From: a virus
IMG/VR virus record: IMGVR_UViG_3300017990_001008
Location: 1-35,261 of that record
Reading direction: 5' to 3' (one strand)
DNA: 35,261 nucleotides
Shown here: piece after piece, positions 8,345 to 34,234 of the stretch
How positions within the stretch are numbered: position 1 is the stretch's first letter
How the letters are laid out: the number at the start of each line of letters is the position of its first letter
Position numbers and translations under genes: made by a program
Notes under the pieces: model-generated
Told to the model about the DNA's origin: nothing
Database searches by the model: none
Seen by the model: only the letters and a program-made list of their open reading frames with translations

Positions 8345-8421
8345 TGAGTTTGTGGGGCAGGGGCGATTAATCCGATGAGCGAAGGATACTTGCGAAAACG
8401 GAACCCTGCCTTTCCACCTCA
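8345..8421 (-). ncRNA. BHB-flanked excisable RNA, element 2
   Basis: Minus strand: outer helix TGAG/CTCA, 4-bp central helix GTGG/CCAC, one 3-nt AAA bulge on each strand just 3' of the central helix, then inner helix GGCAGGG/CCCTGCC. This is the canonical substrate of archaeal tRNA-splicing endonuclease. Cuts after the second bulge base would release 8350-8411 (62 nt). The insert folds further, with GCAAG-UAUC-CUUCGC inside a TCCG/CGGA stem. The TGA of the 33-aa gene is in the outer helix, and the 3' outer strand touches tRNA-Gly. Geometry is seen directly; splicing is inferred. Confidence 0.78.
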
Positions 8422-8520
8422 ACCAAAGTTATATCCATGACATAGGATATGATACTCAAGGGAATTCTCCCTTTCTGCATCCTCTATAGCTTCTTTTTCT
8501 AATTCCTCTTTATGATTCAT
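8419..8520 (-). CDS. 33-aa acidic microprotein between two BHB elements
   Basis: MNHKEELEKEAIEDAERENS then LEYHILCHGYNFG. ATG 8520 follows GAGGAAAAA, and the TGA lies in the outer helix of BHB element 2. It occupies exactly the space between the two excisable RNAs. Highly charged N-terminal helix; no family recognised. If both elements are removed the ORF itself is unchanged. Confidence 0.5.
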   Translation of the reverse strand: MNHKEELEKEAIEDAERENSLEYHILCHGYNFG

Positions 8521-8529
8521 TTTTTCCTC

Positions 8530-8614
8530 GAGTTTGTGGGATAGGAAACAAAATTATATGATGGAGTAGACTGGTGATGCCTGAGTACAACTTTTTTTCC
8601 TATCTTTCCACCTC
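8530..8614 (-). ncRNA. BHB-flanked excisable RNA, element 1, overlapping the ThyX stop
   Basis: Minus strand: outer helix GAG/CTC, central helix GTGG/CCAC, AAA bulge 3' of the central helix on both strands, then a perfect 9-bp inner helix GATAGGAAA/TTTCCTATC. Compared with element 2, central helix and bulges are identical but the inner helix is wholly different and still paired, which is compensatory change. The predicted insert is 8534-8605 (72 nt), continuing as an imperfect AAAAGUUGUA/UAUAAUUUU helix. The ThyX TAG codon falls inside the insert, three bases after the cut. Confidence 0.8.
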
Positions 8615-9244
8615 ACAATATTTTTTGTACAAATCATCGAATATGGTCGGAAAACATGCATGACATAATTTGAGCATTTGTATTGCCATTTCTCGTATTT
8701 CCCATTGTGCGTCTGGAGCACATCGTAATGTAAAGAAATGAAGTAATTCTCGAGCATTCATAGTGATTAAAATGTGTGTAAAATATCCTGGTGGTAAAAG
8801 GTAGCGAGCATCTTCCATAGGAACGCCTTCTTCAATCATAATATTGTAATTTTCGTAAGCCTTCTCAATCATTATTTCATACAAACCGACCAATTTATTG
8901 TTTCCATACGTTTGTTGACTTATTTTTTCAATGGATGGTGGTCGCACATAATCAGCAGGACGTGGTTTGGCATGTCGGTTACTCATTTGAAGATATGATG
9001 CTATCCGGTGTCGAACTAATTGATGTGTCAAACAGCGTGATATTTCCGATACATGAAATGTAAATTTGATGTGTTCAAATACTCCTGTGTGTCCCCAACT
9101 TATGAGGTCACGGCACATATCATCAACGGATTTGTTTTTGCTTGTCCATATAATTTGTTTTTCGTTGCTTCGTGTTCCATGAGCAAGTGATATGAGTGGC
9201 TCATAGAACGAAGGTGCTGTCTTGTCTAAAAGTGATACTTCCAT
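8600..9244 (-). CDS. thyX: Flavin-dependent thymidylate synthase
   Basis: 214 aa, normal ThyX length. The signature RHRIASYLQMSNR (R-H-R-x2-S-x5-S-x-R, near residues 78-90) is diagnostic. ThyX makes dTMP from dUMP with FAD, NADPH and methylenetetrahydrofolate. With the dCMP deaminase at 23518-24012 it gives a dCMP-to-dTMP route. The start overlaps the preceding stop (TAATG) after a GGAGGAAG site. The last codons GAG GTG GAA AGA TAG are also the 5' strand of BHB element 1; splicing would replace the last residue and stop (ER) by ETRGKNES before a new stop. Confidence 0.95.
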   Translation of the reverse strand: MEVSLLDKTAPSFYEPLISLAHGTRSNEKQIIWTSKNKSVDDMCRDLISWGHTGVFEHIKFTFHVSEISRCLTHQLVRHRIASYLQMSNRHAKPRPADYVRPPSIEKISQQTYGNNKLVGLYEIMIEKAYENYNIMIEEGVPMEDARYLLPPGYFTHILITMNARELLHFFTLRCAPDAQWEIREMAIQMLKLCHACFPTIFDDLYKKYCEVER

Positions 9245-9441
9245 TAATCTTCCTCCAAAATAGGTGTATATGGATTTCCATAGTTTTCAAATAAATAGGA
9301 TATTTTATCTTTTAATTCCCTTACACAATCATCGCACAAATCCCAATAATAATCATTATTATGATTTTTATAAAATCTAATGTATGTCTTGTTAGGAACA
9401 CGTATTCGTTTATGACAATGGTCACAACATATAAATTCCAT
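9244..9441 (-). CDS. Zinc-ribbon small protein, 65 aa
   Basis: MEFICCDHCHKRIRVPNKTY, then a CDDC knuckle near residue 38. CDHC and CDDC give a four-cysteine zinc site. I choose ATG 9441, which overlaps the methyltransferase stop (TAATG), in preference to an in-frame GTG nine bases upstream. The acidic C-terminus carries the ribosome site for ThyX. No specific family. Confidence 0.65.
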   Translation of the reverse strand: MEFICCDHCHKRIRVPNKTYIRFYKNHNNDYYWDLCDDCVRELKDKISYLFENYGNPYTPILEED

Positions 9442-10817
9442 TAAAACCACTTGTTTAATCCTTCTTTTTTTGTTTTTTCTTGTGTTTTAGGTAAATCTTT
9501 TTGATTAGGTTCCGATTGTGTTTCAGGTTCATGTTTCTTTTTTCTAAACCACCAATCTAAAGGTTTTGTTTTACCAATTTGCGTTTCATGTTTATTGATA
9601 CCTTTACGGAAAATCCAAATCGGTTCAATTGATAATTTTTCCTGTTTCATATGAGGTCGTGCCGACATAACGAATCCTGTATAGCCAAGATAATAACAAT
9701 CATCAAACGTCATGAAATCGCGAACCATATCATCACATAATGGTTGACGTTTTGATTTGATGATTGGGTCCATAATATTGATACATGAATATCCACCATG
9801 TTTGATTGTAGGCCAAGTCATTTTATTAACTTTGAAAAGAAAATCATATTTCCATGCATCAAATTCCTGATACCGATTCCATGACTGTTCCTCAACGTTT
9901 TTTGAATTCGTACCATATTTTTCGGTGCAGAAATAAGGTGGAGATGTAAAATAAACATCGAATGTATCCTTGTATAGAGACCAATCAACATCCTCCGCAG
10001 GTTTACGCCATATTTTTACGGTTTTTGCGCCGTGTACTTCAAAATAATCTTCTTCCTCGATTAGTTCAGGTGTTTTTCCTGACAAAAATTTATCATAATC
10101 AAGGCATTGTTTTTTGTATAATCCAAATGATACATCGTTTGGGTCGCAACCAACATATAATTTCGTGTGAGGCGTTCCATAAAAACCTGCAAGACGGTCA
10201 CCCCAACCACATGATGTGTCAAGGATATTATCTGCACCGTACATTTCATAAATCGTTTTAGCGGCGTTTGGTTTGAATTGAGCCGCCGTGTATGTACCTA
10301 ATTTAAAAGAAAGTCGAAATGATTCTTCATCTACAGGATTGTCGCCCATGATATCACGCCAAAATAACCAATTCATTGTTTCTAACTTCTTTTGGTCTTG
10401 CCATATTTCAAGTGGTGCCATCATTGATACGCTACCACATGCCATACGATTTTCTTGGTGATAATAATCACTCACACGATTGAATTGTGTTCCTGTGTTA
10501 ATAAGACCGAGTTCATATTCTTCTCCTGTAAATTCATGTTCAGGATATCCTCGAATATCACCCGATTCTTTCTTTTGGAATGATTCGATACATGAAAACG
10601 AATGTAAATTATGAAATCGTTTTTCGACATCCTTTTTTGTAATAACTTTTAAAGGAAATGGAATATGTTCATTGACAATGTAATCAGCTAACGCTTTACG
10701 AATATCATCTTTTTCATATTTTGAGGTAAATTCTTTCCATTCGGGCATTTCAAACGTAGGCAAACCTCGATAATCACCGTGTGCCCGTAATATATCTTTT
10801 ATTTCATCATGTAACAT
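9441..10817 (-). CDS. SAM-dependent DNA methyltransferase (amino-MTase type, TSPPYF)
   Basis: 458 aa. Motif I for SAM is ILDTSCGWGDRLAGFYG near residue 200, followed by an acidic turn (VGCDPND). The catalytic motif IV is DVYFTSPPYF near residue 292; (D/N/S)PPY is the site of N6-adenine or N4-cytosine methylation. About 150 N-terminal residues precede motif I and a basic lysine-rich tail ends the protein. No endonuclease partner is visible nearby, so self-modification or regulation is likelier than a complete restriction system. The target base and site are unknown. One base separates it from the kinase stop. Confidence 0.75.
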   Translation of the reverse strand: MLHDEIKDILRAHGDYRGLPTFEMPEWKEFTSKYEKDDIRKALADYIVNEHIPFPLKVITKKDVEKRFHNLHSFSCIESFQKKESGDIRGYPEHEFTGEEYELGLINTGTQFNRVSDYYHQENRMACGSVSMMAPLEIWQDQKKLETMNWLFWRDIMGDNPVDEESFRLSFKLGTYTAAQFKPNAAKTIYEMYGADNILDTSCGWGDRLAGFYGTPHTKLYVGCDPNDVSFGLYKKQCLDYDKFLSGKTPELIEEEDYFEVHGAKTVKIWRKPAEDVDWSLYKDTFDVYFTSPPYFCTEKYGTNSKNVEEQSWNRYQEFDAWKYDFLFKVNKMTWPTIKHGGYSCINIMDPIIKSKRQPLCDDMVRDFMTFDDCYYLGYTGFVMSARPHMKQEKLSIEPIWIFRKGINKHETQIGKTKPLDWWFRKKKHEPETQSEPNQKDLPKTQEKTKKEGLNKWF

Positions 10818-10818
10818 T

Positions 10819-11820
10819 CTAATCCTCCATCAATATCACTCCTTTCCTATCAAATTTGAAAGGCATACGTTTCAATCCTTTCTTTTCCATAGCACTAACA
10901 AAATCCCAGGATTTTTTATCTTCTTCAGGATGATAAAACATAAAGAATCCTGCACCTTGCGTAGCTGCTCCCATTATTTTTCCACCCAATGCACCATATT
11001 CCATTGCCGTTTCATAACATTCATCAATGAATGGTGTTGTAGCGTCTGGTGCATACGATATTTTTGTTTTCCAATGTTCGTTAAGCAACATCCCAAATTT
11101 ATCAATTTCGAAATTATCAAAAGCTTGTTTTGTCAATTCACCGATTCTTTTGATGCTGTGCATCTTTTCGGTCATATCCATATCTTTTTGTTTTAATTTG
11201 ATATCCTGGTTCGCTAATGCATCGGCGGCTCGAATTTTTCGTTTTTCACCTGTAAAAAATATGTATATCTTTTTTTCTAACTCACGCATCAATAAATCTT
11301 CATCCTGTAATGGTGTAATTGATACTTTACCATCAGGATGAAATGTATACGCTTTAAGAGAACCTTCAGCGCAAGCATATTTATCCTGTTTGCCTTCATG
11401 CTCCTTCATAATATCCAATTCAATATGACAGGCATCTTGAGCAAGTGTTCTTTTACTTGGGTTTAGGTAGTTAAAATGATATAACGTATTGAGTAAAGCA
11501 ATCAAAAAAGCGCCTGAAGAACCAAGGCCTGTTCCTGAAGGAACATCAGCCAATGACGTTATTTCTATTCCTTTTTGTATGTTGAGATATTTGAGCGCTT
11601 CTTTAATCAATGGGTGTTGTATATCATCAATTTCTTCAGCAATTTCTATTTTAGAGTATTTTAATGAATAATTATGCCAAAATTGATGGTTCGCACCGAC
11701 ATATATGTATTTGTCAATTGCTCCTGATATTAAAAAACCACCATATTTTTCATAATATGACGGCAAATCCGTTCCTCCACCTCCTAACGTTATACGCAGA
11801 GGTGCCCGTGATATTATCAT
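10819..11820 (-). CDS. GHMP kinase, D-glycero-D-manno-heptose 7-phosphate 1-kinase-like (HddA)
   Basis: 333 aa, typical. It starts MIISRAPLRITLGGGGTDLP, the HddA/fucokinase-type GHMP start. DVPSGTGLGSSGA near residue 95 is the ATP loop and GGKIMGAATQGAG near 280 the third GHMP motif. It would phosphorylate the anomeric carbon of heptose 7-phosphate with ATP. GGTGAGGAAAAAAG before ATG 11820 is a strong ribosome site. GmhA-like, HAD and HddC-like proteins encoded downstream make heptose the most economical substrate; fucose- or mannose-type sugars remain possible. Confidence 0.82.
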   Translation of the reverse strand: MIISRAPLRITLGGGGTDLPSYYEKYGGFLISGAIDKYIYVGANHQFWHNYSLKYSKIEIAEEIDDIQHPLIKEALKYLNIQKGIEITSLADVPSGTGLGSSGAFLIALLNTLYHFNYLNPSKRTLAQDACHIELDIMKEHEGKQDKYACAEGSLKAYTFHPDGKVSITPLQDEDLLMRELEKKIYIFFTGEKRKIRAADALANQDIKLKQKDMDMTEKMHSIKRIGELTKQAFDNFEIDKFGMLLNEHWKTKISYAPDATTPFIDECYETAMEYGALGGKIMGAATQGAGFFMFYHPEEDKKSWDFVSAMEKKGLKRMPFKFDRKGVILMED

Positions 11821-11834
11821 CTTTTTTCCTCACC

Positions 11835-12038
11835 TTATATTACAATATTGAATTCTTCCCTAATAATTTTTTTGTATGGAAATGATTTGTCCTTGTCAAA
11901 AGGAATGCCTGGATATTTATAATTCCAGGCAACCCATCGGATTTGTGTTTCTATGATTTCTTTCCTTTCCATTAATTCTTTCAATTTTTCTTTATATTCA
12001 TCTTTTTTATCCAGTATTCTCACCACCAACATTATCAT
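11835..12038 (-). CDS. Small charged helical protein, start uncertain
   Basis: The core LDKKDEYKEKLKELMERKEI is a charged helix, followed by WVAWNYKYPGIPFDKDKSFPYKK. Possible starts are ATG 12038 or 12032, or GTGs near 12026, all inside the end of AglB and without a ribosome site before them. A perfect GGTGGTGAG site lies instead six to eight bases before an in-frame CTG at 12014, which would give a 59-aa protein. The stop is 14 bases before the HddA start. No family recognised. Confidence 0.5.
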   Translation of the reverse strand: MIMLVVRILDKKDEYKEKLKELMERKEIIETQIRWVAWNYKYPGIPFDKDKSFPYKKIIREEFNIVI

Positions 12039-15000
12039 ACACAATATTGATTGTGTTATTGTTTGGTTTAAAGAATGCTTGTTGTTGATGCATTGTACAA
12101 TTGGTTGCTGATATCGTTATCTGATAATTGTCAGGAATAATATCTTCCCAATGGAATGTATTGTTGCCTGGTACGAGTTGTTCTGTAAATTCGTGATACA
12201 TGTATGTTGTACTTTTGATTGATAATGTAGCGTCATAGGTATAGTTTTGACAGGATAGGTTAGCGTATGTTTCATTGAAATACACGTTCATATCAATTGA
12301 TGATGTGTTGATGTGGAATTCGACAGGAGGTTCAGTTCGTGGTGTTTGACGCGTTGCTTCTTCATCAGTAACAGGTGTAACAGGTATCAATCCTGTTAGA
12401 TTATTATTACCAACGTATATCTGAAGACTTACATTACCGGCAGGAGCAAGAACAGAGAAATTACCGTTTTCGGTAACATCGTATGTTTTTGGAATATTAT
12501 ATTGGTCAAACACAACCACTTGTGTTCCATCATAACTTTGATTTTCATCACCAAGTTTCACCGTTCCGTTGATAGTCGCTCCTTCATAATATGTTAAAAT
12601 TGCAAGATATGGTGATGAATATGATAATGCCCAATGTTTCAAGAAATAACCAGGAATACGGTCACGTGGAATACTACCATCGCTGACTGGTTGTCCGATG
12701 TACGCTTTGTAAATCATTGTGTTGTAAAAACCATCTTTCCGTGACATTTTGGGTTCAAAATTTCTTCCTAACATTTCCGTTTCACTCATTTCTTCGATTT
12801 CCTCTAATGTAAATGAGTTTCCTGTGTTGGTGTCCGTATATGTAGTGATGTAATAATCATCTTCACCTGTTGAATATCCATGCGTTCCTCTATCAGCAAG
12901 GAATGGGAATACAGAGAAAATTTCGTACATATCACGATATTCAACACCATAATATTTGATATTGTATCCTGTTGTATCTTTGATATCCATATACATTTTT
13001 ACTATTTGTTCTTCAGTTAGGTTTTCAGTCATAATACGACAGCAATCATGATATTTTGCATTTTCATCTGATACATGCAATACTGTGTTACCCCATTCAG
13101 GCGCTGTTAATTGATTGTATGTGGGTGCTGATTTTGGGTTTTCGATGTAATTGATAACATCTTGTCCCGGATAAAATGATACGTTATATGTGTCAGTAAC
13201 ATTACCTTCAGCATCTTTGATTTCACGGGTTTCGTTATATGGAGGTAGGTATGTTCTGTAAACGTTTTTTACGTTTTCAGGCATGATATTATTTTCGATA
13301 GTTCCATCAGTACAACGAATAATCATAACACAAATTGCTTCACCTTCAGATTGTGCGATATGAAAATTAGCTGCCGGTTCGATACCCGACTGATAGTTAT
13401 CAGCAACAGCAGGATGTCCGCTCATAGCAGCTGTGTAAAACCCGTAATCCCACCATGCCATCAATGCAGGTCTGTCTTTTTCAAGTGGAATATCAGTGTC
13501 TTGATGTGATAACCAATTCAATCCTTCAGCCCAATAATATTGTTGTATAAGATTGTTTCCCCAAGCACCTGTAAATCCTTCACCGAATACTTCTTCATCC
13601 ATTTCAGGTGGGACGGCGGCGTCAAGCGCTAAAAAGGTATTTGGTACCACAAGTGCAAAAACAGTAACAGCGATAACGGTTATTTGTGCAACTTTCATTC
13701 CTTGCATTGTCCGTGCAAAACCTAATTGTTCGAAATTTGTTTTTAATTTCTTCAAATCAACTTTTTCAATCATCAGCATAATGAAATATGATGTAAACAA
13801 CACCATATATGGCACCAGTTCATTGAGAAAACGAGCCGCTATGGTGGTTAACCAGAAATTCGTTACAAATATACTGATGATTAAGACATGCTCAGGTTTG
13901 AATTTATCACGATACACTTGATAAAGAAATATAATAAATCCTGAAAGGCATAACCAATATAATGCAGGTCCAAACGACATCACGGTTGCACTTAATTGTG
14001 AGGTCGCCGCTTCACCAATCGTAAGTGATACTTGACTTCCATAAATACCTTCTCCAAATATAACATTTGCAAATCCTCGTAATACACCAGTCACTGGTAA
14101 AATACCAATCTGTATCATATATAAAAACGATAATCCAACTGCGCCAATACCTACTGTTATTGGTAATGTTATTAACCATGGGTAATTTATTCTCTTTAAA
14201 ATAAAGTAGTACAGTAAAATACCAAATGAAAATGCCATTGTTAAAAACGGATAATGAAATGTCCGATTAATCATTGCCATGTAAGGTAATGATATGATGA
14301 ATGCTGTCGCTAACATAATTGACACTTTTTTGCAAGGAACAAGGTCATATTTTGTGCGTAAGATATTGATGAATACGTAAATAGCAATAAATATACAAAA
14401 TATCAAAAATATCACTTGAGCCGCAACCCATGTCATTTGAATTGTAGCCATTACTGTACCCGCTGATATTGCATATAAATATCCGCGTTTATCTTTTGTT
14501 ATTAATGCTTTAATAAATAAATAAAACGTCAATGTAAACAACAAAAGCAAAAATGAATCATGGTCGAATAAAGAGAAACTTGAACCGTGTCCTGAACCAA
14601 TATGTATAGGAATCAATGCAACAAGAAAAGCGGCAAAAATACCAACCTTTCGACTGAATAGTTCCTTTCCTATACCATATACAGGAAAAACAAGCAATGC
14701 ACCATAAATTGCCGGCAAGAATAACATACACCAACCCAATGCATCAAGCACCGGCATTCCTGATATTGTATTAACAAACAATGCCGAACCGACCGCAATC
14801 ATATTAAAAACAGGCGGACGAGAACCTTTATCACCAACAGGATAATTTAGTAACGGGTCTTCATCAACCACATAGGGATAATATCCTTTTTGAATCGTTT
14901 CTTCACATGTTCTCATGTTATAATAAGGGTCAGGTCCCGATAAAAAGAAACGAGTACCTAACGTATCACCATCTTCATTATATGCACCGCCTGATGTGTA

Positions 15001-15165
15001 GTTGAAATAACTGTTCATGAAAAGAACCAAAAACATGATACCTATAAGAGTAATAGCGGTGATTGTTCTCTTTGAAGGTAATGTTTTTTTGATTGGTTCT
15101 TGAATTTTAGCTGGTTGTTTAACAACAGCCTTCTTTTGTTTTTGTTTCACTCTCTTTCGAGTCAT
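12007..15165 (-). CDS. aglB: Oligosaccharyltransferase, AglB/STT3 family
   Basis: 1052 aa from ATG 15165 (site GGAGGAAAG); the longer frame overlaps the upstream gene. After a basic cytoplasmic tail come about a dozen transmembrane segments (residues ~45-500), then a soluble outer domain. Visible family motifs: GPDPYYNMR near residue 78, DHDSF near 200, TIGE near 383 (the archaeal TIxE loop) and the catalytic-domain WWDYG near 570. A beta-sandwich-like C-terminus (NGTVKLG, NFSVLAPAGNVSLQIYV) follows. AglB transfers a lipid-linked glycan to Asn-x-Ser/Thr outside the membrane. The protein has many N-x-S/T sites of its own. A full-length copy in a mobile element is unusual. Confidence 0.93.
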   Translation of the reverse strand: MTRKRVKQKQKKAVVKQPAKIQEPIKKTLPSKRTITAITLIGIMFLVLFMNSYFNYTSGGAYNEDGDTLGTRFFLSGPDPYYNMRTCEETIQKGYYPYVVDEDPLLNYPVGDKGSRPPVFNMIAVGSALFVNTISGMPVLDALGWCMLFLPAIYGALLVFPVYGIGKELFSRKVGIFAAFLVALIPIHIGSGHGSSFSLFDHDSFLLLLFTLTFYLFIKALITKDKRGYLYAISAGTVMATIQMTWVAAQVIFLIFCIFIAIYVFINILRTKYDLVPCKKVSIMLATAFIISLPYMAMINRTFHYPFLTMAFSFGILLYYFILKRINYPWLITLPITVGIGAVGLSFLYMIQIGILPVTGVLRGFANVIFGEGIYGSQVSLTIGEAATSQLSATVMSFGPALYWLCLSGFIIFLYQVYRDKFKPEHVLIISIFVTNFWLTTIAARFLNELVPYMVLFTSYFIMLMIEKVDLKKLKTNFEQLGFARTMQGMKVAQITVIAVTVFALVVPNTFLALDAAVPPEMDEEVFGEGFTGAWGNNLIQQYYWAEGLNWLSHQDTDIPLEKDRPALMAWWDYGFYTAAMSGHPAVADNYQSGIEPAANFHIAQSEGEAICVMIIRCTDGTIENNIMPENVKNVYRTYLPPYNETREIKDAEGNVTDTYNVSFYPGQDVINYIENPKSAPTYNQLTAPEWGNTVLHVSDENAKYHDCCRIMTENLTEEQIVKMYMDIKDTTGYNIKYYGVEYRDMYEIFSVFPFLADRGTHGYSTGEDDYYITTYTDTNTGNSFTLEEIEEMSETEMLGRNFEPKMSRKDGFYNTMIYKAYIGQPVSDGSIPRDRIPGYFLKHWALSYSSPYLAILTYYEGATINGTVKLGDENQSYDGTQVVVFDQYNIPKTYDVTENGNFSVLAPAGNVSLQIYVGNNNLTGLIPVTPVTDEEATRQTPRTEPPVEFHINTSSIDMNVYFNETYANLSCQNYTYDATLSIKSTTYMYHEFTEQLVPGNNTFHWEDIIPDNYQITISATNCTMHQQQAFFKPNNNTINIVYDNVGGENTG

Positions 15166-15421
15166 TTTTACTTTCCTCCAACAATTTTTGATGTTCCCAA
15201 AACCGTTTGATATAATCTTCAAACCATATCGGATAAAACTGTATGATAACGAAACCAATTATGGTTAATCCTATCAATCCTCCAACAATAGGTCCGTATA
15301 TTGATTGTGTAAACAAACACGGTATCACAAGACATGCAATGAATAACATGCTGAATACAATACTATAGAATATCAACCTCACTTTTGTTCCATTATCCAT
15401 TAATTTTTCTTCTTCCATCAT
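15119..15421 (-). CDS. Small membrane protein next to AglB
   Basis: 100 aa with two transmembrane segments (LIFYSIVFSMLFIACLVIP and PIVGGLIGLTIIGFVIIQF) and a charged Ser/Glu/Lys-rich tail ending KTKEGCC. The ATG overlaps the XPF stop (ATGATGG), and the last 47 bases overlap the start of AglB in another frame, so the two are probably co-translated. It could be an accessory to the transferase by position. No family is recognised. Confidence 0.65.
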   Translation of the reverse strand: MMEEEKLMDNGTKVRLIFYSIVFSMLFIACLVIPCLFTQSIYGPIVGGLIGLTIIGFVIIQFYPIWFEDYIKRFWEHQKLLEESKNDSKESETKTKEGCC

Positions 15422-16086
15422 GATAATACTTCCTTTATTTTTTCTGATAATTTTTTTCCAAATCCTTCAACTTCCATAATTCGTCTTACAGGCGCTTTAG
15501 TGATTTCTGCTATTGAATAATCAAAATGTTCCAACAAATGAACACCTTTTTTAGCGCCAACACCAGGCAAACGACTGATGATATCAAGTTTTATTTCCTG
15601 TGAACTCGCTTCGCGTTTTGCTTTTTTATGACGGGTTCGTATCGGGCTATATTCCTTAACCGGATTTTTCAAGTCATAGAATTTTTCAATGACACGACAC
15701 GTAAAGGGCACATATAACGTACCAACAAACATGATGGTTACTTGATGTCGTGCCATAATTGATGCTAATTCACCTGCAATTATTTTCGGATTTGTTCCTT
15801 TATTTTTGGTGATGAGGTCTTTTATTCCATCATATTCAATAAAGAGGTATGGATGAATGAAATTATTTTTTAATTCAATCAATTGTTTTTCAAGTTGTTT
15901 ATCGTATACTGATTGTATGAAATCAGTATGCTTTCGTTCAATACCAACCAAATTATCAGGTGTATGAACATCAGCAGGAAAATTGCCGACTTGTATACCT
16001 TCTATCAAAGGTGATTTACCTTTTTCGATAAATTGTCTAAATCGTGGTATGACTTCCTTTTCACGATAATCAACACAAATTCTCAT
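15418..16086 (-). CDS. XPF/ERCC4-type structure-specific endonuclease
   Basis: 222 aa. The nuclease domain starts RICVDYREKEVIP (first acidic motif) and holds VGIERKHTDF, the ERKxxxD active site. A C-terminal helix-hairpin-helix pair follows (SRLPGVGAKKGVHLL, MEVEGFGKKLSEKI), giving the short archaeal XPF layout without helicase. It cuts branched or flapped DNA, and archaeal XPF depends on PCNA, which is encoded about 1.5 kb upstream. The ATG overlaps the stop of the 37-aa gene. It belongs to the replication/repair operon. Confidence 0.9.
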   Translation of the reverse strand: MRICVDYREKEVIPRFRQFIEKGKSPLIEGIQVGNFPADVHTPDNLVGIERKHTDFIQSVYDKQLEKQLIELKNNFIHPYLFIEYDGIKDLITKNKGTNPKIIAGELASIMARHQVTIMFVGTLYVPFTCRVIEKFYDLKNPVKEYSPIRTRHKKAKREASSQEIKLDIISRLPGVGAKKGVHLLEHFDYSIAEITKAPVRRIMEVEGFGKKLSEKIKEVLS

Positions 16087-16196
16087 TCGATGCCTCCAAA
16101 TGTGCCTTTGGGTCCTTGATTTTTCTTATGGATGGGATGGTTGGATGTGTTTTCAAAAATATTTATCAAGGATATCCCAGCAATATTAGAATACAT
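16083..16196 (-). CDS. 37-aa microprotein between primase and XPF
   Basis: MYSNIAGISLINIFENTSNH then PIHKKNQGPKGTFGGIE. It begins immediately after the primase TAA (TAAATG) and its TGA overlaps the XPF ATG, so it exactly fills the 110-base gap. The stretch GISLINIF has the hydrophobic spacing of a PCNA-interacting peptide but lacks the usual first glutamine. By position it could tether XPF or primase to the clamp; this is a guess. Confidence 0.55.
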   Translation of the reverse strand: MYSNIAGISLINIFENTSNHPIHKKNQGPKGTFGGIE

Positions 16197-17195
16197 TTAC
16201 CAATGCCTCCTTTTGAAACTACAATTTTTACAAAGGTGTCCATATGATTTTTCCAAAAAAGAACATTTTACAGGACGTGGTTTGACACTTCGTATTTGAT
16301 ATGATGTTATCCCAGGTCGATATCTTGTCCAATTACGATTTTTGATGAACGCATTAATAGCGATATCAGTATATTGTAGATGTTTCAACCACGCTACAAG
16401 TTCAACACGTTCAAAATGTGTGGGATGTGTATTTGTTGCAATTGCTTGTAAACATGGAAGACCTAAAGCTGGAACGTTAGGAACCGTATTTCCTAATCGT
16501 TTTATCTTCAATTTTATTTGGTTATCAGCTTTCCGAGGAATAATCTTGAAATTTTTAAAATGGTGTGAAATTTGAAGTAATGAAATATCACTTTTTGGTG
16601 GTTGTGGAACGATACCTGGTTCTTTGACAAGTTTCGATATATGTTTACATCCTTTATCGAATTCATCATTTGTAAGATATCGACAGTACATACCATTTTC
16701 CTCGAGTTTTCCTGTTTCTTCATTTGCACGTATATATTTTGATGTTGGATATCGTATTAAAAATCTGATTCGTCCATATGTAGGTGAATCAAACGCTTCC
16801 AGTCCTAATTCTTTTGACAATCGCATTTGTATCGAATACATCAAATTTGAAACATCAACTTTATCTCGTGGTGTGTAAAGAGTGACTGGTTTGAATAAAA
16901 TGAAAGCGTGAAATCCTTTACCTCCGCTAAAGTTTTGTATAACAGGAATATCACGTTTATAGCACCAATCACTCAATTTTTTCACGTTCCTCCACGGCAT
17001 ACGGATACTAAAATATGAATCGATGTCAAATAACAGATTGTCAACAATTGGTACGCCTTTTCTTTTATAACGAAACGGAGAAACAAAGTAAGGTACCTTA
17101 TTTTTGAACATCCGTTCAAAATTATCGAAGGCAAATTTTGTTTCAACCCATAATTGGTTTGGGAAACCAACAAATCTGGGAGTTTCGTTAAACAT
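16197..17195 (-). CDS. Archaeo-eukaryotic primase, PriS-type catalytic part fused to PriL-type Fe-S domain
   Basis: 332 aa from ATG 17195 (the frame also has a TTG one codon earlier). LLFDIDSYF near residue 56 is the metal-binding DxD, and FSGGKGFHAF near 92-98 the nucleotide motif with histidine. The C-terminal third, from LPCLQAIAT near 248 to KCSFLEKSYGHLCKNC, has four cysteines and the YQIRSV element of the PriL Fe-S domain. Cellular archaea keep these as two proteins; the fusion is typical of plasmids and viruses. It should synthesise primers for the MCM/PCNA module encoded beside it. Confidence 0.85.
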   Translation of the reverse strand: MFNETPRFVGFPNQLWVETKFAFDNFERMFKNKVPYFVSPFRYKRKGVPIVDNLLFDIDSYFSIRMPWRNVKKLSDWCYKRDIPVIQNFSGGKGFHAFILFKPVTLYTPRDKVDVSNLMYSIQMRLSKELGLEAFDSPTYGRIRFLIRYPTSKYIRANEETGKLEENGMYCRYLTNDEFDKGCKHISKLVKEPGIVPQPPKSDISLLQISHHFKNFKIIPRKADNQIKLKIKRLGNTVPNVPALGLPCLQAIATNTHPTHFERVELVAWLKHLQYTDIAINAFIKNRNWTRYRPGITSYQIRSVKPRPVKCSFLEKSYGHLCKNCSFKRRHW

Positions 17196-17204
17196 CAAAC
17201 CAAC

Positions 17205-22240: not shown

Positions 22241-22323
22241 ATTCAATACCTCACCACCTGAAGTAAACAAAAATCCAATATCCATCCATTAGATTTTTGG
22301 GAAAAAATGATATGTCAACCGGG

Positions 22324-22333
22324 TTTATATATT
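22324..22333 (-). promoter_or_regulatory. TATA box, leftward arm of a divergent promoter
   Basis: Minus strand AATATATAAACCCGG. The expected start is near 22300, 60 bases before ATG 22240 of the replication operon. The sequence TATATAAACC is repeated in inverted orientation 45 bases away on the plus strand, so the two promoters share a motif beyond TATA itself. Confidence 0.55.
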
Positions 22334-22367
22334 TTTTTAAATTTCCTAATTTAGATAGATTCCAAAA

Positions 22368-22376
22368 TTATATAAA
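22368..22376 (+). promoter_or_regulatory. TATA box, rightward arm of a divergent promoter
   Basis: Plus strand TTATATAAACCG. Twenty-six to 28 bases downstream lies 22398-22403, exactly at the TTG/GTG that opens the plus-strand gene, so that message would be leaderless. Confidence 0.55.
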
Positions 22377-22402
22377 CCGAAAAAATGATATATTAATTAT
22401 TG

Positions 22403-22708
22403 GTGGTTATTCTGAAAGAACAGGATTTTGATTATAAAAGTGAAGAAGGCGATTGGGTTCTAACTTCATCTTATGATGGTGTAACAGGAAAAGTTGAAGG
22501 AAGATTTCAATCAAAACGTGATGCAAAAAAATTTTATAAATATTTAATAAAAAGCGGTTTAGGTTCGCGTAATAAAGGTTATAAAATAGTATACGACCCT
22601 CAAAAAGTATTAGGTTTTTATAATCCTGTTGGTTCAGTTCCTATTCAAGCTATTGAAGGCGATAATTTAGAACAAGCTAAAAATCGTTATTATTTTGAAA
22701 ATAAATGA
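22403..22708 (+). CDS. Only plus-strand gene; hypothetical 101-aa protein without ATG start
   Basis: From GTG 22403 it reads VVILKEQDFDYKSEEGDWVL and ends YYFENK. There is no in-frame ATG near the front; GTG 22403, TTG 22400 or a CTG five bases after GGTGG (22415 region) are the options. TATA spacing favours a leaderless GTG or TTG. The domain is mixed alpha/beta (RFQSKRDAKKFYKYLIKSGL) with no known family. It is divergent from the replication operon, a position often held by regulators, but no helix-turn-helix is evident. Confidence 0.6.
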   Translation: MVILKEQDFDYKSEEGDWVLTSSYDGVTGKVEGRFQSKRDAKKFYKYLIKSGLGSRNKGYKIVYDPQKVLGFYNPVGSVPIQAIEGDNLEQAKNRYYFENK

Positions 22709-22720
22709 GGGGTTTTCAAC

Positions 22721-22751
22721 CTTTCTTTTTTTTAATTAACCAAAAAGAAAG
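22721..22751. terminator. Bidirectional hairpin terminator between convergent genes
   Basis: CTTTCTTTTT (22721-22730) pairs with AAAAAGAAAG (22742-22751) around an 11-base loop. It lies between the plus-strand gene (ends 22708) and the leftward gene that stops at 22732, and gives a T-rich tract in the rightward direction. The leftward microprotein's stop codon lies in the loop. Confidence 0.6.
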
Positions 22752-22824
22752 CAAGTATGGCATAAATTGCGACCCCTATTAAAGCAAAAATGATACATAT
22801 TTCATCGAATCTTGGTTTTCTCAT
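22732..22824 (-). CDS. 30-aa single-pass membrane microprotein
   Basis: MRKPRFDEICIIFALIGVAI then YAILAFFLVN: a basic start and one transmembrane helix. The ATG overlaps the stop of the ASCH-like gene (TAATG). It ends in the loop of the terminator hairpin, being the last gene of the leftward operon. Confidence 0.5.
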   Translation of the reverse strand: MRKPRFDEICIIFALIGVAIYAILAFFLVN

Positions 22825-24014: not shown

Positions 24015-24653
24015 TTATTTCTCAACAATAATAGTATACAGGTTAGGTCTTGCGTTCAATGATTCGTAATGTATAATATATCCTTCCTGCACGTATTTGT
24101 TTAGTTCGTTTTCAAGATTCTTCGGACCGCCTGTTGATATTACTTTTATTTTCTTTCTAATGAATGGTTTTTCTGTTTTAATTGCCGTTTCTTCTTCAAT
24201 AATGATGTTTCCTGTAGGTTTTGTTTCCATAACTTGAAAAGGCAGTATTTGTCCCAATGATGTAATATTTGGAATGATAACTATATCACCTTTGGTTACC
24301 GGTCTTTTTCTAAGATTTCTGTTTAATAATATGTTAATATCTTCACCTAATTGTACACTATGTAGAGGAGCTACCGTTATTTCTTTTGCTTTTTTTGTCG
24401 TAGCTTTCTTTATTGTGACTTCATCACCCACACACGCACCAGCATTTTCTCTAGTGAATTCATCGATTCGTATGATTCCTTTTCCTTCATCATTTGGATG
24501 AGAACGCCACACAACAGCAACCGTTTTAGTATTACCAGTTATTTCAATGATGTCGCCAACGTTTAGATTGAGTTTCTCTCTCGTATCTACATCAATACGT
24601 GCTCGATTATAACAAATATCTATATTAAAAGCAATATCAACTTTTTGTTTCAT
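24015..24653 (-). CDS. Stand-alone Cdc48/VAT N-domain protein
   Basis: 212 aa. Residues ~15-95 follow the Cdc48/VAT N-terminal double-psi barrel closely: ARIDVDTREKLNLNVGDIIE, AVVWRSHPNDEGKGIIRID, FTRENAGACVGDEVTI, AKEITVAPLH. A second beta part to about residue 168 resembles the CDC48_2 subdomain. No AAA ATPase domain follows; the last ~45 residues (VISTGGPKNLENELNKYVQE ...) are a separate small alpha/beta element. The N-domain is where Cdc48/VAT binds substrates and adaptors, so a free copy could act as adaptor or decoy. Confidence 0.78.
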   Translation of the reverse strand: MKQKVDIAFNIDICYNRARIDVDTREKLNLNVGDIIEITGNTKTVAVVWRSHPNDEGKGIIRIDEFTRENAGACVGDEVTIKKATTKKAKEITVAPLHSVQLGEDINILLNRNLRKRPVTKGDIVIIPNITSLGQILPFQVMETKPTGNIIIEEETAIKTEKPFIRKKIKVISTGGPKNLENELNKYVQEGYIIHYESLNARPNLYTIIVEK

Positions 24654-24774
24654 GTTTTTTCCTCGTTATTTTTTGAGGTTTTTGTCGAATGAGACCGCAT
24701 TTCTCACATTGTTCTACTATGAATCCTTCACTGCTCCATGATTTTTGTTTCCATTTATGAAATATACAAACCAT
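24637..24774 (-). CDS. 45-aa zinc microprotein (H-W, CEKCG, R)
   Basis: MVCIFHKWKQKSWSSEGFIV, EQCEKCGLIRQKPQ and a basic tail. The order C-x2-H-x-W ... C-x2-C-G-x-x-R is a recurring pattern in small phage and archaeal zinc proteins. It starts two bases after the preceding stop and its end overlaps the Cdc48 N-domain gene by 17 bases. Confidence 0.6.
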   Translation of the reverse strand: MVCIFHKWKQKSWSSEGFIVEQCEKCGLIRQKPQKITRKKHETKS

Positions 24775-27805: not shown

Positions 27806-27827
27806 AATAAGATGATTATTGTTATTC

Positions 27828-27840: not shown

Positions 27841-27851
27841 TGATTAGGGGA

Positions 27852-28000: not shown

Positions 28001-28153
28001 TTAGTTTTTTATTGGATGAAACACACCGACAAAATCACAATTAGGACAACGATACACCTTTTTTGAATCACCAAAAATCAAACCTGTATGTTCAAATTTA
28101 TAATGCGAAAATTTCAAAGCGGCGCCACATAACGGACAGGTTTTTTGTTTCAA
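28001..28153 (-). CDS. 50-aa zinc-ribbon protein with TTG start
   Basis: TTG 28153 overlaps the TGA of the upstream gene (TTGA). It reads MKQKTCPLCGAALKFSHYKF and ends CPNCDFVGVFHPIKN. CPLC and CPNC form a classical ribbon. Last gene before a 195-base gap. Function unknown. Confidence 0.58.
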   Translation of the reverse strand: MKQKTCPLCGAALKFSHYKFEHTGLIFGDSKKVYRCPNCDFVGVFHPIKN

Positions 28154-28548
28154 GGAATATCAGCTTTTTCTAGTTTTTCAATATATTTTACTAATTCTCG
28201 TGCATCAACCCAACCTACAACTGGTTCGTTATTTTTGATTTTTCTTGTCCATTCAGATTTCCCGTCATCTTTTATGTTTTTATGAAAACCAACTTCAACT
28301 GAGTGATATTTATTGGTAATTTTTTTTGGGGAACAATAAAAATTTTTTCCTGCTATGATAGTTATACCATAACGATTAAGATATCTAGCGTAAATACAGA
28401 TACCATAATATTCATTGAGATTATCATCCTCAATGTCCATGATTTTCCATCCCTTTCTTTTCTTGAAAAAATCAATTAAGTCATCTTGTGTTAATTTAGG
28501 TTGAGAAGGTTGTTTTACTACACCCCAGTAGTCATCGATTTTAATCAT
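28150..28548 (-). CDS. KIDDYW-tagged protein B, 132 aa
   Basis: Begins MIKIDDYWGVVKQPSQPKLT. The first eight residues are the tag shared with 28548-28922 and 2926-3375. The rest (YYGICIYARYLNRYGITIIAGKNFYC, VGWVDARELVKYIEKLEK) is a mixed alpha/beta domain with no known family and no similarity to the other two. It overlaps its tagged neighbour by one base. Confidence 0.6.
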   Translation of the reverse strand: MIKIDDYWGVVKQPSQPKLTQDDLIDFFKKRKGWKIMDIEDDNLNEYYGICIYARYLNRYGITIIAGKNFYCSPKKITNKYHSVEVGFHKNIKDDGKSEWTRKIKNNEPVVGWVDARELVKYIEKLEKADIP

Positions 28549-28922: not shown

Positions 28923-28937
28923 AATCATAACTAATAT

Positions 28938-28950
28938 GTAATTTATAATT
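28938..28950 (-). promoter_or_regulatory. TATA box for the KIDDYW operon
   Basis: Minus strand AATTATAAATTAC; the core is about 24 bases before ATG 28922, giving a leaderless or nearly leaderless message. The flank TATAAATTAC is also present in the transaldolase promoter (minus strand 2901-2890). Confidence 0.5.
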
Positions 28951-28984
28951 TATTAAATTTAATAATCTATGTTTTATTGTAAAT

Positions 28985-31413: not shown

Positions 31414-31442
31414 TATTACACCATATTAATATAGATTTATTA

Positions 31443-31484
31443 GTATTTAAATGTTTTGTTAAAATTAATAATTCTTTATATAGG
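31443..31484 (-). promoter_or_regulatory. Two candidate TATA boxes upstream of the SNF2 gene
   Basis: On the minus strand TATATAAAG (31482-31474) would start transcription near 31453, and CATTTAAATAC (31453-31443) near 31422, nine bases before ATG 31413. I cannot decide between them. Confidence 0.42.
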
Positions 31485-31490
31485 AGGGAT

Positions 31491-31542
31491 GGGAGAAAGA
31501 AAAAATAAGGTCGAGAAGTTTTTGATGGCTTTTCTTCCTCCC
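31491..31542 (-). terminator. 13-bp hairpin immediately after tRNA-Met
   Basis: GGGAGGAAGAAAA (minus, 31542-31530) pairs over 13 positions, with one G-U, with TTTTCTTTCTCCC (31503-31491), loop 26 bases. It begins two bases after the tRNA 3' end, so it is probably the trailer or terminator of the tRNA transcript, before the SNF2 promoter. Confidence 0.5.
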
Positions 31543-31544
31543 AA

Positions 31545-31617
31545 TAACGGCGGTAGGACTTGAACCTACGATTTTTGCCTTATGGGGGCAATGGATTATC
31601 CGCTTTCCCACGCCGTT
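31545..31617 (-). tRNA. tRNA-Met(CAU), A1-U72 with C33
   Basis: Minus strand: acceptor AACGGCG/CGCCGTT, D arm GGA-AAGCGGATAA-TCC, anticodon arm TTGCC-CCCATAA-GGCAA with CAT, variable loop AAATC, T arm GTAGG-TTCAAGT-CCTAC, A73, no encoded CCA; 73 nt. The first pair A1-U72 is a mark of archaeal/eukaryotic initiator tRNA, and pairs 29-31 are all G/C, though not the usual GGG/CCC. Position 33 is C where nearly all tRNAs have U. Initiator Met, elongator Met or an Ile2-type tRNA cannot be separated by eye. Confidence 0.88.
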
Positions 31618-31652
31618 AGTTTTCATAATACGTTTTTTGTATTTTTAATTTT

Positions 31653-33326
31653 TCATTCATTTTGTTGTTCATTCATTTTTCTCCTTTTGTAATGCGTAAA
31701 TTTTTCTTCGATAAAACCACGACCACCCCACAATCCTTCATTTCGTATAATAAAGCAGTTATCGATAGTTCGCGTGATACCGACATATATCAATTTCGTT
31801 TCATCCGTAATACGCGAATCATTTCGCGGATAATAATCCATAATGATGATGTTGTTTGCTTGTAATCCTTTACTGGCATGAAGCGTACCGGCAAAAAATG
31901 GAATGTTTTCGATGATTCCGTCATGTTTACTGATGTGTCGTATATATTCTCTTTTTAGTAGGGAAAAATCATTTGTCGATTGTATGTGTTGTTTTAATTG
32001 TACAACATTTTTTATGTTTTCAAATAAATTGAAAAACACCTTGATTTTATCATCTGATTTATTCCAAATCAATTCAGGACGCGTTGCAAGTTGTGTTTTT
32101 ACACCACGTTTTAGTGTATTTCTTGCTTTTAATTCGGAAATGAAATCTTGACATTCACGTAATGTTGGATTTTCATCACATAATAATTTGACGAATAAAT
32201 TGTAAATGTTTTTGAATTTTTCATAATTCCATACAGTATTGGTGCGACCAATACCAATAACAGGAATATTCATTTTACTGCATTGTTCAATTGCTTCTCG
32301 AACTTGAGCGTTTGTACGAGCAAGAATATAGGTGGTGCCTTCAAGTTCACGATGTAACGCGTGAGATAAAGTATCATGTATCGTTAAGGTTCCTTGTTTG
32401 CCTGATGATTCAACATCTTGTATTGTTTTTTCACCAATAGATTCAGAAAGATAACGAGCAAAATCCCAAGGTTGTTCAGGAACGCGATAACTCTTTTTCA
32501 ATACATGATAATCATCGGTTCTAATGTTTTCTATGTGTTGAGGATTCGAACCGGTGAATCGATATATCGTTTGCATTGGGTCATAACAGGCAACGACTTC
32601 CTTAACATATGGTGCGTTCCACCAAATTTCTAAAACCTTCATTTGTAATTTACCGAAATCATGTGTTTCATCAATGAAGATATATTGAATAGGACGATGA
32701 TATTGTAATTTGTTTTTATACACGATTTGCAACAGGTCTTCATATTCCCATCGATTGTGTTTTCGTTTATATAATTCCCATCCTTTGTAAAATGATACAA
32801 GAAAATCAACATCAAAACGATGTAAATACACGCGTTCTTCCTGCTTTAATTCAGCCCGATTTCGTATTTTTTCGATAATGATATCATCATCAGCATACAT
32901 ACATTTCAACAAACTGAACCACACGTACATCGCGTTTGATTCTGCCTTACCATCAACTGATATTGCACCAATATCATCAATCGAATCAAGGTTTGCAACA
33001 GATACTTTTGTGTCAAAATCAAGTTGCATCATTCGAGCATAGGTTTCATAATCTTCAATAGTAATATAATTCGGTTTACTAAAACCAAGGACACGATTTG
33101 CCAAACTATACACCGTACCAAAATTATTCAAATGGGTTCGATTGATACCTCGTTCTTTTAGTTTTTCATAAATGGCTCGTGATGCGCTTCGTGAATATGT
33201 AGTGAACATGATATTTTCAATACTGGTACCATTATCAATCAATTTGATGATTTGATTTGCAATATAAGTCGTTTTTCCGGCACCTGGTAAACCTAATATT
33301 TTGTGAAATTTTATTTCATGTTGCAT
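31653..33326 (-). CDS. UvrD/Rep-like superfamily 1 helicase
   Basis: 557 aa. Motifs in order: LGLPGAGKTT (Walker A, residues 11-20), FTTYSRSASRAI (Ia), YIFIDETHDF (II, DE), CYDPMQTIYRF (III), LKKSYRVP (IV), GTLHASKGLQANNIIIMDYY (V) and LIYVGITRTID (VI). This is the complete UvrD-type set, with short accessory subdomains compared with ~700-aa bacterial members. It should unwind DNA 3'-5' in repair or recombination. Its ATG overlaps the preceding stop (TAAATG). The stop lies 36 bases before tRNA-Met. Confidence 0.9.
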   Translation of the reverse strand: MQHEIKFHKILGLPGAGKTTYIANQIIKLIDNGTSIENIMFTTYSRSASRAIYEKLKERGINRTHLNNFGTVYSLANRVLGFSKPNYITIEDYETYARMMQLDFDTKVSVANLDSIDDIGAISVDGKAESNAMYVWFSLLKCMYADDDIIIEKIRNRAELKQEERVYLHRFDVDFLVSFYKGWELYKRKHNRWEYEDLLQIVYKNKLQYHRPIQYIFIDETHDFGKLQMKVLEIWWNAPYVKEVVACYDPMQTIYRFTGSNPQHIENIRTDDYHVLKKSYRVPEQPWDFARYLSESIGEKTIQDVESSGKQGTLTIHDTLSHALHRELEGTTYILARTNAQVREAIEQCSKMNIPVIGIGRTNTVWNYEKFKNIYNLFVKLLCDENPTLRECQDFISELKARNTLKRGVKTQLATRPELIWNKSDDKIKVFFNLFENIKNVVQLKQHIQSTNDFSLLKREYIRHISKHDGIIENIPFFAGTLHASKGLQANNIIIMDYYPRNDSRITDETKLIYVGITRTIDNCFIIRNEGLWGGRGFIEEKFTHYKRRKMNEQQNE

Positions 33327-33707
33327 TTATTCCCACTTCTTTCCGACAAGTATTATTCTATCAGGATAATCCTGTTTTAATTCTTTAAAGACAGGTTTGA
33401 TGATTTTCCAAATATGATGTTTATTGGCAAGTCCGCTACCTAATGCTGATATATAATAGGTTTTATTATCATTATCAATCTGCATTCTTAATTTTCGCAT
33501 TTCCGAACAAAGGATACAGGTATATGTTTTTTTGTTATAAAATGCATCATCATTGTTTGTTGGTTTTCGTTTTGTAATAAAACCATATGATTGCGGATGG
33601 TCGCGTAATTTAGCAGCTCCACCATGTCCTGAACGATACAAATTATCACCGAATACAAATATTGCGTTAGGATGTTGGTCCAACCATTGTTTTGTTATTT
33701 CTTCCAT
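33327..33707 (-). CDS. Macro-domain-like small phage-type protein
   Basis: 126 aa. WLDQHPNAIFVFGDNLYRSG followed by HGGAAKLRDHPQSYGFITKR matches small phage proteins with P-x-x-x-F-V-F-G-D-N-x-x-x-x-G-x-G-G-A-A-x-x-R, a macro-domain-related group of unknown role (ADP-ribose or nucleotide binding suspected). The C-terminal part has YYISALGSGLANKHHIWKII. A strong GGAGGTAAGGGTA site lies before ATG 33707, just downstream of BHB element B. Confidence 0.65.
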   Translation of the reverse strand: MEEITKQWLDQHPNAIFVFGDNLYRSGHGGAAKLRDHPQSYGFITKRKPTNNDDAFYNKKTYTCILCSEMRKLRMQIDNDNKTYYISALGSGLANKHHIWKIIKPVFKELKQDYPDRIILVGKKWE

Positions 33708-33726
33708 TACCCTTACCTCCTTACCT

Positions 33727-33808
33727 CAAAGATTTATGGGGAACGAGAAAAAATTCTTTTCTTGGGTGAGAAAAGGTAACATTTCCAAGTGTTCCTATCC
33801 ATTCTTTG
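33727..33808 (-). ncRNA. BHB-flanked excisable RNA, element B
   Basis: Minus strand: outer helix CAAAGA/TCTTTG (6 bp), central helix ATGG/CCAT (4 bp), bulges ATA and AAA, each 3' of the central helix, inner helix GGAAC/GTTCC (5 bp). The predicted insert is 33734-33796, 63 nt, with an internal CTTTTCT-CACCCA-AGAAAAG hairpin. It is the tandem neighbour of element A: central helix and bulges are identical and the inner helix differs by paired changes. It lies between element A and the ribosome site of the macro-like gene. Confidence 0.8.
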
Positions 33809-33822
33809 AGATATAACAGAAT

Positions 33823-33902
33823 AAGATTTATGGGCAAAAACCCATTAGGGTTTGGTAATGATTTTTCGAGGAGGAAAAATCTTACATTTGCTATCCATTC
33901 CT
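33823..33902 (-). ncRNA. BHB-flanked excisable RNA, element A
   Basis: Minus strand: outer helix AGGA/TCTT (one G-U), central helix ATGG/CCAT, bulges ATA and AAA, inner helix GCAAA/TTTGC. The predicted insert is 33828-33892, 65 nt. Inside are two perfect hairpins, GATTTTTC-CTCCTC-GAAAAATC and AAACCC-TAAT-GGGTTT, making a three-way junction on the inner helix. The TAA of the upstream 78-aa gene ends in the outer helix. Confidence 0.8.
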
Positions 33903-34138
33903 TATCCATTATATTCTATTTCTCGATATCCGCCTATTTCATCATCAAACTCCCACACATCGATATGTGTCAATTCGCCACAATGTTGTTTTGCTTCTCG
34001 AGCATTGTAATATCCATAAAGATGAGCAATTGATTCGTCTTCTTCTTTTTGTATTATTTTTGCTTGTTTTTTTGTTTTGGCAATAGCGAGCAAGGCATCG
34101 TTGCGATGTCGGAATATCAGGTACAGTTTTTTCATCAT
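33902..34138 (-). CDS. Hypothetical protein, 78 aa, between BHB elements
   Basis: MMKKLYLIFRHRNDALLAIA, then a helical KTKKQAKIIQKEEDE and an acidic C-terminus HIDVWEFDDEIGGYREIEYN. Twin ATGs at 34138/34135 follow TATAGGTG, which is itself in the exon flank of BHB element 3. The TAA is in the outer helix of element A. The small alpha/beta layout is common in phage genomes; no family recognised. Confidence 0.58.
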   Translation of the reverse strand: MMKKLYLIFRHRNDALLAIAKTKKQAKIIQKEEDESIAHLYGYYNAREAKQHCGELTHIDVWEFDDEIGGYREIEYNG

Positions 34139-34148
34139 CTACACCTAT

Positions 34149-34234
34149 AAGTTTCTCAACAGCCAAGACAAAAGTTTAGGCACAAACTTATGAAAACCAA
34201 CTAGGAGAGTTGGAAATTGGCTGTTATTGAGCTT
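34149..34234 (-). ncRNA. BHB-flanked excisable RNA, element 3
   Basis: Minus strand: outer helix AAG/CTT, central helix CTCA/TGAG, bulges ATA and AAA, inner helix ACAGCCAA/TTGGCTGT (8 bp). The predicted insert is 34153-34225, 73 nt, containing hairpins CCAAC-TCTCCTA-GTTGG and AAGTTT-GTGCCT-AAACTT on a three-way junction, the same plan as element A. The stop TAA of the HD gene overlaps the outer helix (TAAG). Central helix sequence differs from the other elements but is fully paired, a second kind of compensatory support. Confidence 0.8.

Follow-up and report, generated by a model that had tools for sequence, protein, structure and literature searches.

Six bulge-helix-bulge elements in the gene gaps of a probable archaeal virus: candidate intercistronic introns

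IMG/VR record IMGVR_UViG_3300017990_001008, classed as a virus by IMG/VR and probably representing a virus of archaea, was analyzed over its whole length of 35,261 bases, hereafter the window. The minus strand carries all the frames matched to protein families, together with both of the tRNAs found (n = 2; 8274-8344 and 31544-31618). The median gap between adjoining frames is 4 bases, and our own gene list leaves 12.5% of the window noncoding. A second contig of the same virus, IMGVR_UViG_3300028840_004838, is 100% identical over the overlap and extends the sequence by 18 kb. A preliminary description had reported five intergenic RNA segments in what it took for a virus-like element, each bounded by the bulge-helix-bulge (BHB) motif recognized by the archaeal splicing endonuclease EndA. 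The viral nature of the DNA agrees with its IMG/VR listing, and it carries archaeal-type genes. All five segments are found on the minus strand where they had been placed, and a blind scan adds a sixth at 16103-16182. The elements, e1 to e6, are listed with two neighbouring genes, each element being written on the coding strand as outer helix, central helix, bulge and inner helix, followed by the returning strand.

e1, 8343..8423, minus strand: GTTGAG-GTGG-AAA-GGCAGGG...CCCTGCC-CCAC-AAA-CTCAGC, from fold and descriptor; predicted insert 8350-8411, 62 nucleotides (nt), minus strand, with a frame of 33 amino acids (aa) on one side and tRNA-Gly on the other
e2, 8529..8615, minus strand: TGAG-GTGG-AAA-GATAGGAAA...TTTCCTATC-CCAC-AAA-CTCG, from fold and descriptor; predicted insert 8534-8605, 72 nt, minus strand, including the thyX stop codon
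e3, 33722..33813, minus strand: TATCTCAAAGA-ATGG-ATA-GGAAC...GTTCC-CCAT-AAA-TCTTTGAGGTA, from fold and descriptor; predicted insert 33734-33796, 63 nt, minus strand, followed by AGGAGGT and the ATG of a DUF7831 gene
e4, 33817..33908 with core 33823-33902, minus strand: AGGA-ATGG-ATA-GCAAA...TTTGC-CCAT-AAA-TCTT, from a looser descriptor; predicted insert 33828-33892, 65 nt, minus strand, in tandem with e3 in one gap
e5, 34148..34235, minus strand: TAAG-CTCA-ATA-ACAGCCAA...TTGGCTGT-TGAG-AAA-CTTA, from fold and descriptor; predicted insert 34153-34225, 73 nt, minus strand, with its start at the stop codon of an HD-domain gene
e6, 16103..16182, minus strand, new, from the blind scan: TGC-TGGG-ATA-TCCTTGAT...ATCAAGGA-CCCA-AAG-GCA; predicted insert 16107-16173, 67 nt, minus strand, flanked by a 333-aa frame (16197-17198) and an ERCC4-type nuclease gene
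tRNA-Gly (TCC), 8274..8344, minus strand, from ARAGORN and Rfam: directly after e1, its first two bases lying inside the longest e1 outer helix
thyX, 8600..9244, minus strand: Thy1 / TIGR02170

On the coding strand the central helix has both bulges on its 3′ side, and the polarity is that of a BHB on the minus strand only, as the preliminary description had it. The bulges are rich in A, although the descriptor set no bulge base. Adenine occupies 31 of their 36 positions, and is the first base in 12 of 12 bulges. The 5′ bulge is ATA in four elements and AAA in two, and the next base is G in e1 to e4; the 3′ bulge is AAA in five of the six and AAG in e6. Thus the earlier account of five elements, with three versions of the central helix and an AAA 3′ bulge throughout, holds for e1 to e5, but e6 departs from it in its bulge and in a TGGG centre, which is a fourth version. 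The predicted inserts span 62-73 nt across the six, and those of e1 to e5 (62, 72, 63, 65 and 73 nt) have just the lengths given for them before. In one co-crystal with EndA the bulges are A-dU|A, then G, and A-A|A, cut between bases 2 and 3, with the first bulge A sandwiched between side chains (PMC12397907). The bulges of the viral elements resemble that RNA, e3 and e4 having ATA followed by G, and AAA.

All six elements lie within gaps of our own gene list, between frames of one direction, and none is within either tRNA found. They are 82-100% noncoding by that list, which omits a 37-aa and a 62-aa frame. Three elements, e5, e4 and e1, start where the preceding frame has its stop codon (the 33-aa frame in the case of e1). 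The intergenic location claimed at the outset is borne out, the elements lying in gaps between frames; it needs correcting for e2, which spans the end of thyX, overlapping its last codons, with the stop inside the predicted insert.

When folded by RNAfold with 10-base flanks, e1, e2, e3 and e5 each form a 4-bp central helix with a 3-nt bulge 3′ of it on either strand. The same is true of e4, with an extra unpaired A between the outer and central helices, on the 5′ side of the centre. When the flanks are omitted the outer helix fails to form in e2, e4 and e5. A register test places the canonical form as the minimum-energy fold of e1, e2, e3 and e5, in the last of which the central pairs have probabilities of 0.48-0.60. 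The elements had been called canonical without distinction. This is correct for those four of the six in their minimum-energy fold, while e4 and e6 are near-canonical, with neighbouring registers that are equal or better. The hBHBh′ form is present in five of the six by our strict descriptor, and in all six by the looser one. The z-scores of the minimum free energy range from −2.78 to −4.39 for e1 to e5, and for each of these none of 200 shuffles is as good.

How far does the number of elements exceed chance? The strict descriptor specified a Watson-Crick 4-bp centre, 3-nt bulges and at least 5 inner and at least 3 outer Watson-Crick pairs, leaving the bulge bases free. It finds five matches on the minus strand of the window, namely e1, e2, e3, e5 and e6; e4 falls below the rule by one G-U pair and is caught by the looser version. 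In 40 dinucleotide shuffles the mean is 0.325 matches (maximum 2), or 0.05 (maximum 1) with A-rich bulges. There are no wrong-polarity matches on the minus strand and no right-polarity matches on the plus strand, and the five wrong-polarity matches of the plus strand are the count expected from mirror images. Neighbouring descriptor sizes give 0-4 matches, the highest of which arises in part from these elements themselves, displaced by a single base. The 18 kb added by the second contig contain no further element with A-rich bulges on both sides.

The same descriptor was run on both strands of other archaeal and viral DNA. In total this yields 5 A-rich matches in 2,788,131 bases, compared with 5 in the 35,261-base window, where 0.06 would be expected; the resulting chance probability is only rough, because the background sets are mixed and partly redundant. 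They had been gathered for other reasons and are unlike in base composition; part of HCTV-1 is probably counted double, and several of the viral contigs seem almost the same as one another. Five archaeal virus records (357,040 bases; Drs3 and psiM2 whole, HCTV-1, HGTV-1 and vir249 mostly) give 2 A-rich matches, and 9 strict matches without the A condition. For 59 archaeal loci (935,026 bases) these figures are 1 and 24. Among 34 other viral contigs (264,185 bases) there are 2 A-rich matches, being one sequence on two contigs, and 6 strict matches. A thyX alignment scan of viral contigs provided the best 80 of 130 loci, 79 of them besides this virus, and these 79 (1,231,880 bases) give no A-rich match and 27 strict ones. 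Without the A condition the window itself has 6 strict matches, the sixth being a short-loop match on the plus strand (6039-6075). The background under-detects real BHB motifs, as neither of the tRNA introns annotated in HGTV-1 satisfies the strict rule, one of the two being recovered when the rule is loosened. The two background matches most like the elements, HCTV-1 42744-42815 and Drs3 14330-14388, were retained in the count, and that in Drs3 is an A/T run. The HCTV-1 match is a strict A-rich BHB-shaped hairpin lying antisense within a coding gene, in a virus that encodes RtcB.

Two further candidates in the window were rejected. A stretch at 28073-28150 shows the expected spacing and a loop of fitting size once the rules are loosened, but on our reading it is the coding stretch of a CxxC zinc ribbon, and it does not take a BHB as its minimum-energy fold. 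It serves as a useful false positive. The candidate at 24738-24774, with 3/2 bulges and a tiny loop, was dropped.

Comparison of the six copies shows that every one of the 13 pairs counted differs between copies on its two sides, and that 77 of 78 cells pair, as against 33-47% in slid versions; this count is partly circular, because the copies were picked for pairing. Elements e1 and e2 share flank letters, as do e3 and e4. Exact scans of IMG/VR for the e3/e4 arms and the e1/e2 arms give 9 and 25 matches, respectively, outside this virus. No BHB was seen in the folds of the 9; the 25, several of which are near-identical, have at most 4 inner and at most 3 outer pairs. The same flank letters found elsewhere do not pair. 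Scans of viral contigs with alignments or queries for the helicase, the DUF932 protein, the GHMP kinase, CDC48-N and ERCC4, and with two BHB flank patterns, found no related element outside this virus. Searching 147 genomes of a single order for the helicase gave 3 partial matches. A CDC48-N scan of genome contigs gave 59 loci; among 22 frames inspected 18 are long CDC48-type (at least 722 aa), 3 are truncated where the contig ends and 1 is short, and we take these for host genes.

We propose that the six elements are intercistronic BHB introns of the virus mRNAs, which would be cut by the EndA of the host and probably rejoined; we give this reading a probability of about 0.6. In our judgement the elements as a set are likely to be EndA substrates, and their full splicing is plausible. 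The elements would sit in the gaps between genes of polycistronic viral mRNAs, where the EndA of the host archaeon would recognize each fold and cut after base 2 of each 3-nt bulge, each pair of cuts freeing a piece of 62-73 nt. Host RtcB would most likely join the flanks, circularize the piece, or both, RtcB having been named as a possible joining enzyme (PMC12558985). Each joined site would fold into a stem closed by a 7-nt loop. The two genes would then lie a few tens of bases apart, or would overlap: once the inserts are removed, about 21 bases should remain at e5, 43 at e6 and 66 at e4-e3. At e2 thyX would run into the next small frame. As we read the joined sequence, the last residue and stop codon of thyX would give way to a tail of 7 residues, which overlaps that frame at its start. 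What the sequence shows is the fold, the polarity, the bulge letters, the placement in gaps on the gene strand and the excess over chance; that the sites are transcribed, cut and joined, and that the virus gains by it, is what we infer. More tentatively, the virus may have spread BHB introns through its operon gaps, such that their removal by the tRNA-splicing machinery of the host alters gene spacing, translational coupling and the C-terminus of ThyX, while 62-73-nt circles are freed.

A number of observations weigh against this proposal, including the under-detection of real motifs in the background and the circularity of the pairing count. Two elements are not uniquely canonical. The canonical form of e6 ties at −13.7 kcal/mol with a register having a 3-bp centre and AAA bulge, its z-score is −0.81 and 37 of 200 shuffles are equally good. 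In e4 the canonical form lies 0.8 kcal/mol above the register with the extra unpaired A, and the outer-pair probability is about 0.09. The alpha2 EndA of Haloferax strictly requires hBHBh′ (PMC7714728), and a strict enzyme of this type might fail on e4 and e6. Small frames also run through some elements. A 37-aa frame at 16083-16196, with an upstream GGAGG-type site, crosses e6, overlapping its neighbours; on our reading of the joined sequence, splicing would turn it into a short frame entering the ERCC4 nuclease gene. A 62-aa frame at 33721-33909 crosses e4 and e3, with KEWI encoded at each of the two 5′ arms. No homologous virus was found, the virus being a singleton; the one other contig is identical to it over their overlap. 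Neither EndA nor RtcB is encoded on either contig by the models used, although the contigs may be fragments, and no match to capsid, terminase or portal families was found among the proteins scanned.

Could EndA cut these sites to some other end? The sites might serve to divide one long polycistronic transcript into individual mRNAs, the flanks not being rejoined. Phage T7 uses RNase III to process its transcripts, to which viral use of a host splicing enzyme may be likened. Every element has its place between frames, with a tRNA following immediately on e1, and the BHB stems cut by EndA are known to free rRNAs from a multicistronic precursor (PMC7714728). Yet paired cuts around a short insert exceed the need for parting two genes, e3 and e4 stand in tandem in a single gap, and EndA sites are reported to give circular products (PMC7714728), so that we consider simple parting of the mRNAs unlikely. 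The inserts could themselves be the product, as small circular non-coding RNAs with the mRNA splice a by-product, a view that draws on their narrow length range, the stable folds inside e2 to e5 and the existence of circular small RNAs in archaea (PMC3695527, PMC12558985). However, an exact box C (RUGAUGA) or box D (CUGA) is present in none of the six inserts on the gene strand read as circles. At gathering thresholds Rfam finds only tRNAs in the whole window, with no rRNA and no group I or group II intron core, and loose Rfam searches of e1 to e5 gave nothing convincing. The inserts show no match to one another by BLAST, and in the rest of the virus they match nothing convincingly, the best being a 15-nt identity of the e5 insert at 28280-28294 on the same strand (E 0.003) and 13-nt complements of the e6 insert (E 0.037), both uncorrected for six queries. 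We thus regard inserts made for their own sake as quite improbable.

The elements might be ordinary intercistronic hairpins that bind protein, are cut by another nuclease or affect mRNA stability, and which look like a BHB but are uncut by EndA. The facts rest on sequence only, and e4 and e6 are not uniquely canonical, e6 being weak. The 4/3/3 spacing, the single polarity and the invariable first A of the bulges are, however, unexpected of generic hairpins, and 1.23 Mb of thyX-bearing viral loci gave no A-rich match; this explanation is improbable too, if marginally less so than the last. A reading of the stems as terminators was rejected, there being no U-run after them. Finally, the shapes could result from chance folding or from coding constraint, in keeping with the small frames passing through e6 and e4-e3. 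We find this very hard to credit: five matches are seen with 0.06 expected, and on our reading the 62-aa open reading frame is in one frame at the 3′ arm of e3 and in another at that of e4.

Intercistronic splicing by host EndA would involve chemistry that is already known, and its closest precedents are the intron in the 5′ untranslated region (UTR) of HVO_1309 and the introns of cbf5. HVO_1309 of Haloferax volcanii contains a 46-nt BHB intron that EndA cuts in vitro, and its circle is seen in circular RNA sequencing (PMC7714728). Like the viral elements it is a short BHB-bounded insert in an untranslated part of an mRNA; unlike them it is cellular and present as one copy in the 5′ UTR of one gene, whereas here there are six copies of 62-73 nt between the genes of a virus, known from sequence alone. 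The crenarchaeal cbf5 introns are BHB-like, lie in the mRNA of a protein gene and are cut by EndA, but they interrupt the coding frame of a conserved gene, while ours fall outside frames or at the end of thyX (PMC2738675). The BHB introns of archaeal tRNAs have the same geometry of 4 bp and two 3-nt bulges, and are found inside tRNAs, unlike the six elements. The archaeal virus HGTV-1 has two annotated intron-bearing tRNAs; that of tRNA-Ala fits the loosened descriptor and that of tRNA-Asp does not. In archaeal pre-rRNA a polycistronic precursor is likewise parted by BHB motifs, but these enclose 16S and 23S rRNA and give circles of 1658 and about 2980 nt, where here there is no rRNA and the inserts are below 75 nt (PMC7714728). 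Putative introns have also been claimed as inserts in an archaeal virus genome (Peng et al., via PMC2738675); those are of 12 bp within protein-coding genes, and their splicing was not demonstrated. In the literature searched, which omits most subscription papers and was available partly as excerpts, we found no BHB elements between viral genes. The novelty claimed in the preliminary description is upheld to that extent, but was put somewhat too strongly in view of the HVO_1309 intron and the intron-bearing tRNAs of HGTV-1.

The literature consulted names cbf5, a crenarchaeal gene family, and the haloarchaeal UTR of HVO_1309 as spliced archaeal mRNAs (PMC7714728). If our proposal is right, an archaeal virus would add a whole mRNA intron family to these, and its six sites would provide EndA with a natural and compact panel of mRNA substrates. 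The archaeal viruses HCTV-1 and HGTV-1 carry RtcB genes (PMC8651126), for which such elements would offer a possible role beyond tRNA repair. The origin and spread of introns of this kind, with no gene inside, then become a question.

The gene content of the record bears on its host. An archaeal-type oligosaccharyltransferase of the STT3/AglB family matches TIGR04154 (E 9.9e-53, below the cut-off of the model), and an ERCC4 nuclease with HHH is encoded. The nearest relative of the CDC48 N-domain is an archaeal VCP-like ATPase, presumably VAT of Thermoplasma. A Sak4-like ATPase matches Haloarcula viruses only, and weakly (3 records, E 2e-3). Several other window genes match bacterial phages instead. 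The STT3/AglB, CDC48-N, ERCC4 and Sak4-like genes point to an archaeal host.

The CDC48-type N-terminal domain (24015-24653, 212 aa) stands alone, without AAA+ ATPase domains, and has about 40% identity to the N-domain of the archaeal VCP-like ATPase. Heptose-pathway-like genes (HddC-, HAD-, GmhA- and HddA-like) occur together with two sugar epimerases, a transaldolase-like gene and the STT3/AglB-like oligosaccharyltransferase, at 4744-5439, 6945-7604, 7471-8109, 10819-11820, 74-1977, 2105-2848 and 12007-15258; the NCBIfam matches of these heptose and glycan genes fall below their cut-offs. Their presence in one virus record suggests virus-directed glycosylation. Lastly, a long gap in the gene list at 22286-22823 contains a 28-nt imperfect palindrome at 22322-22378, and is possibly an origin or regulatory region.

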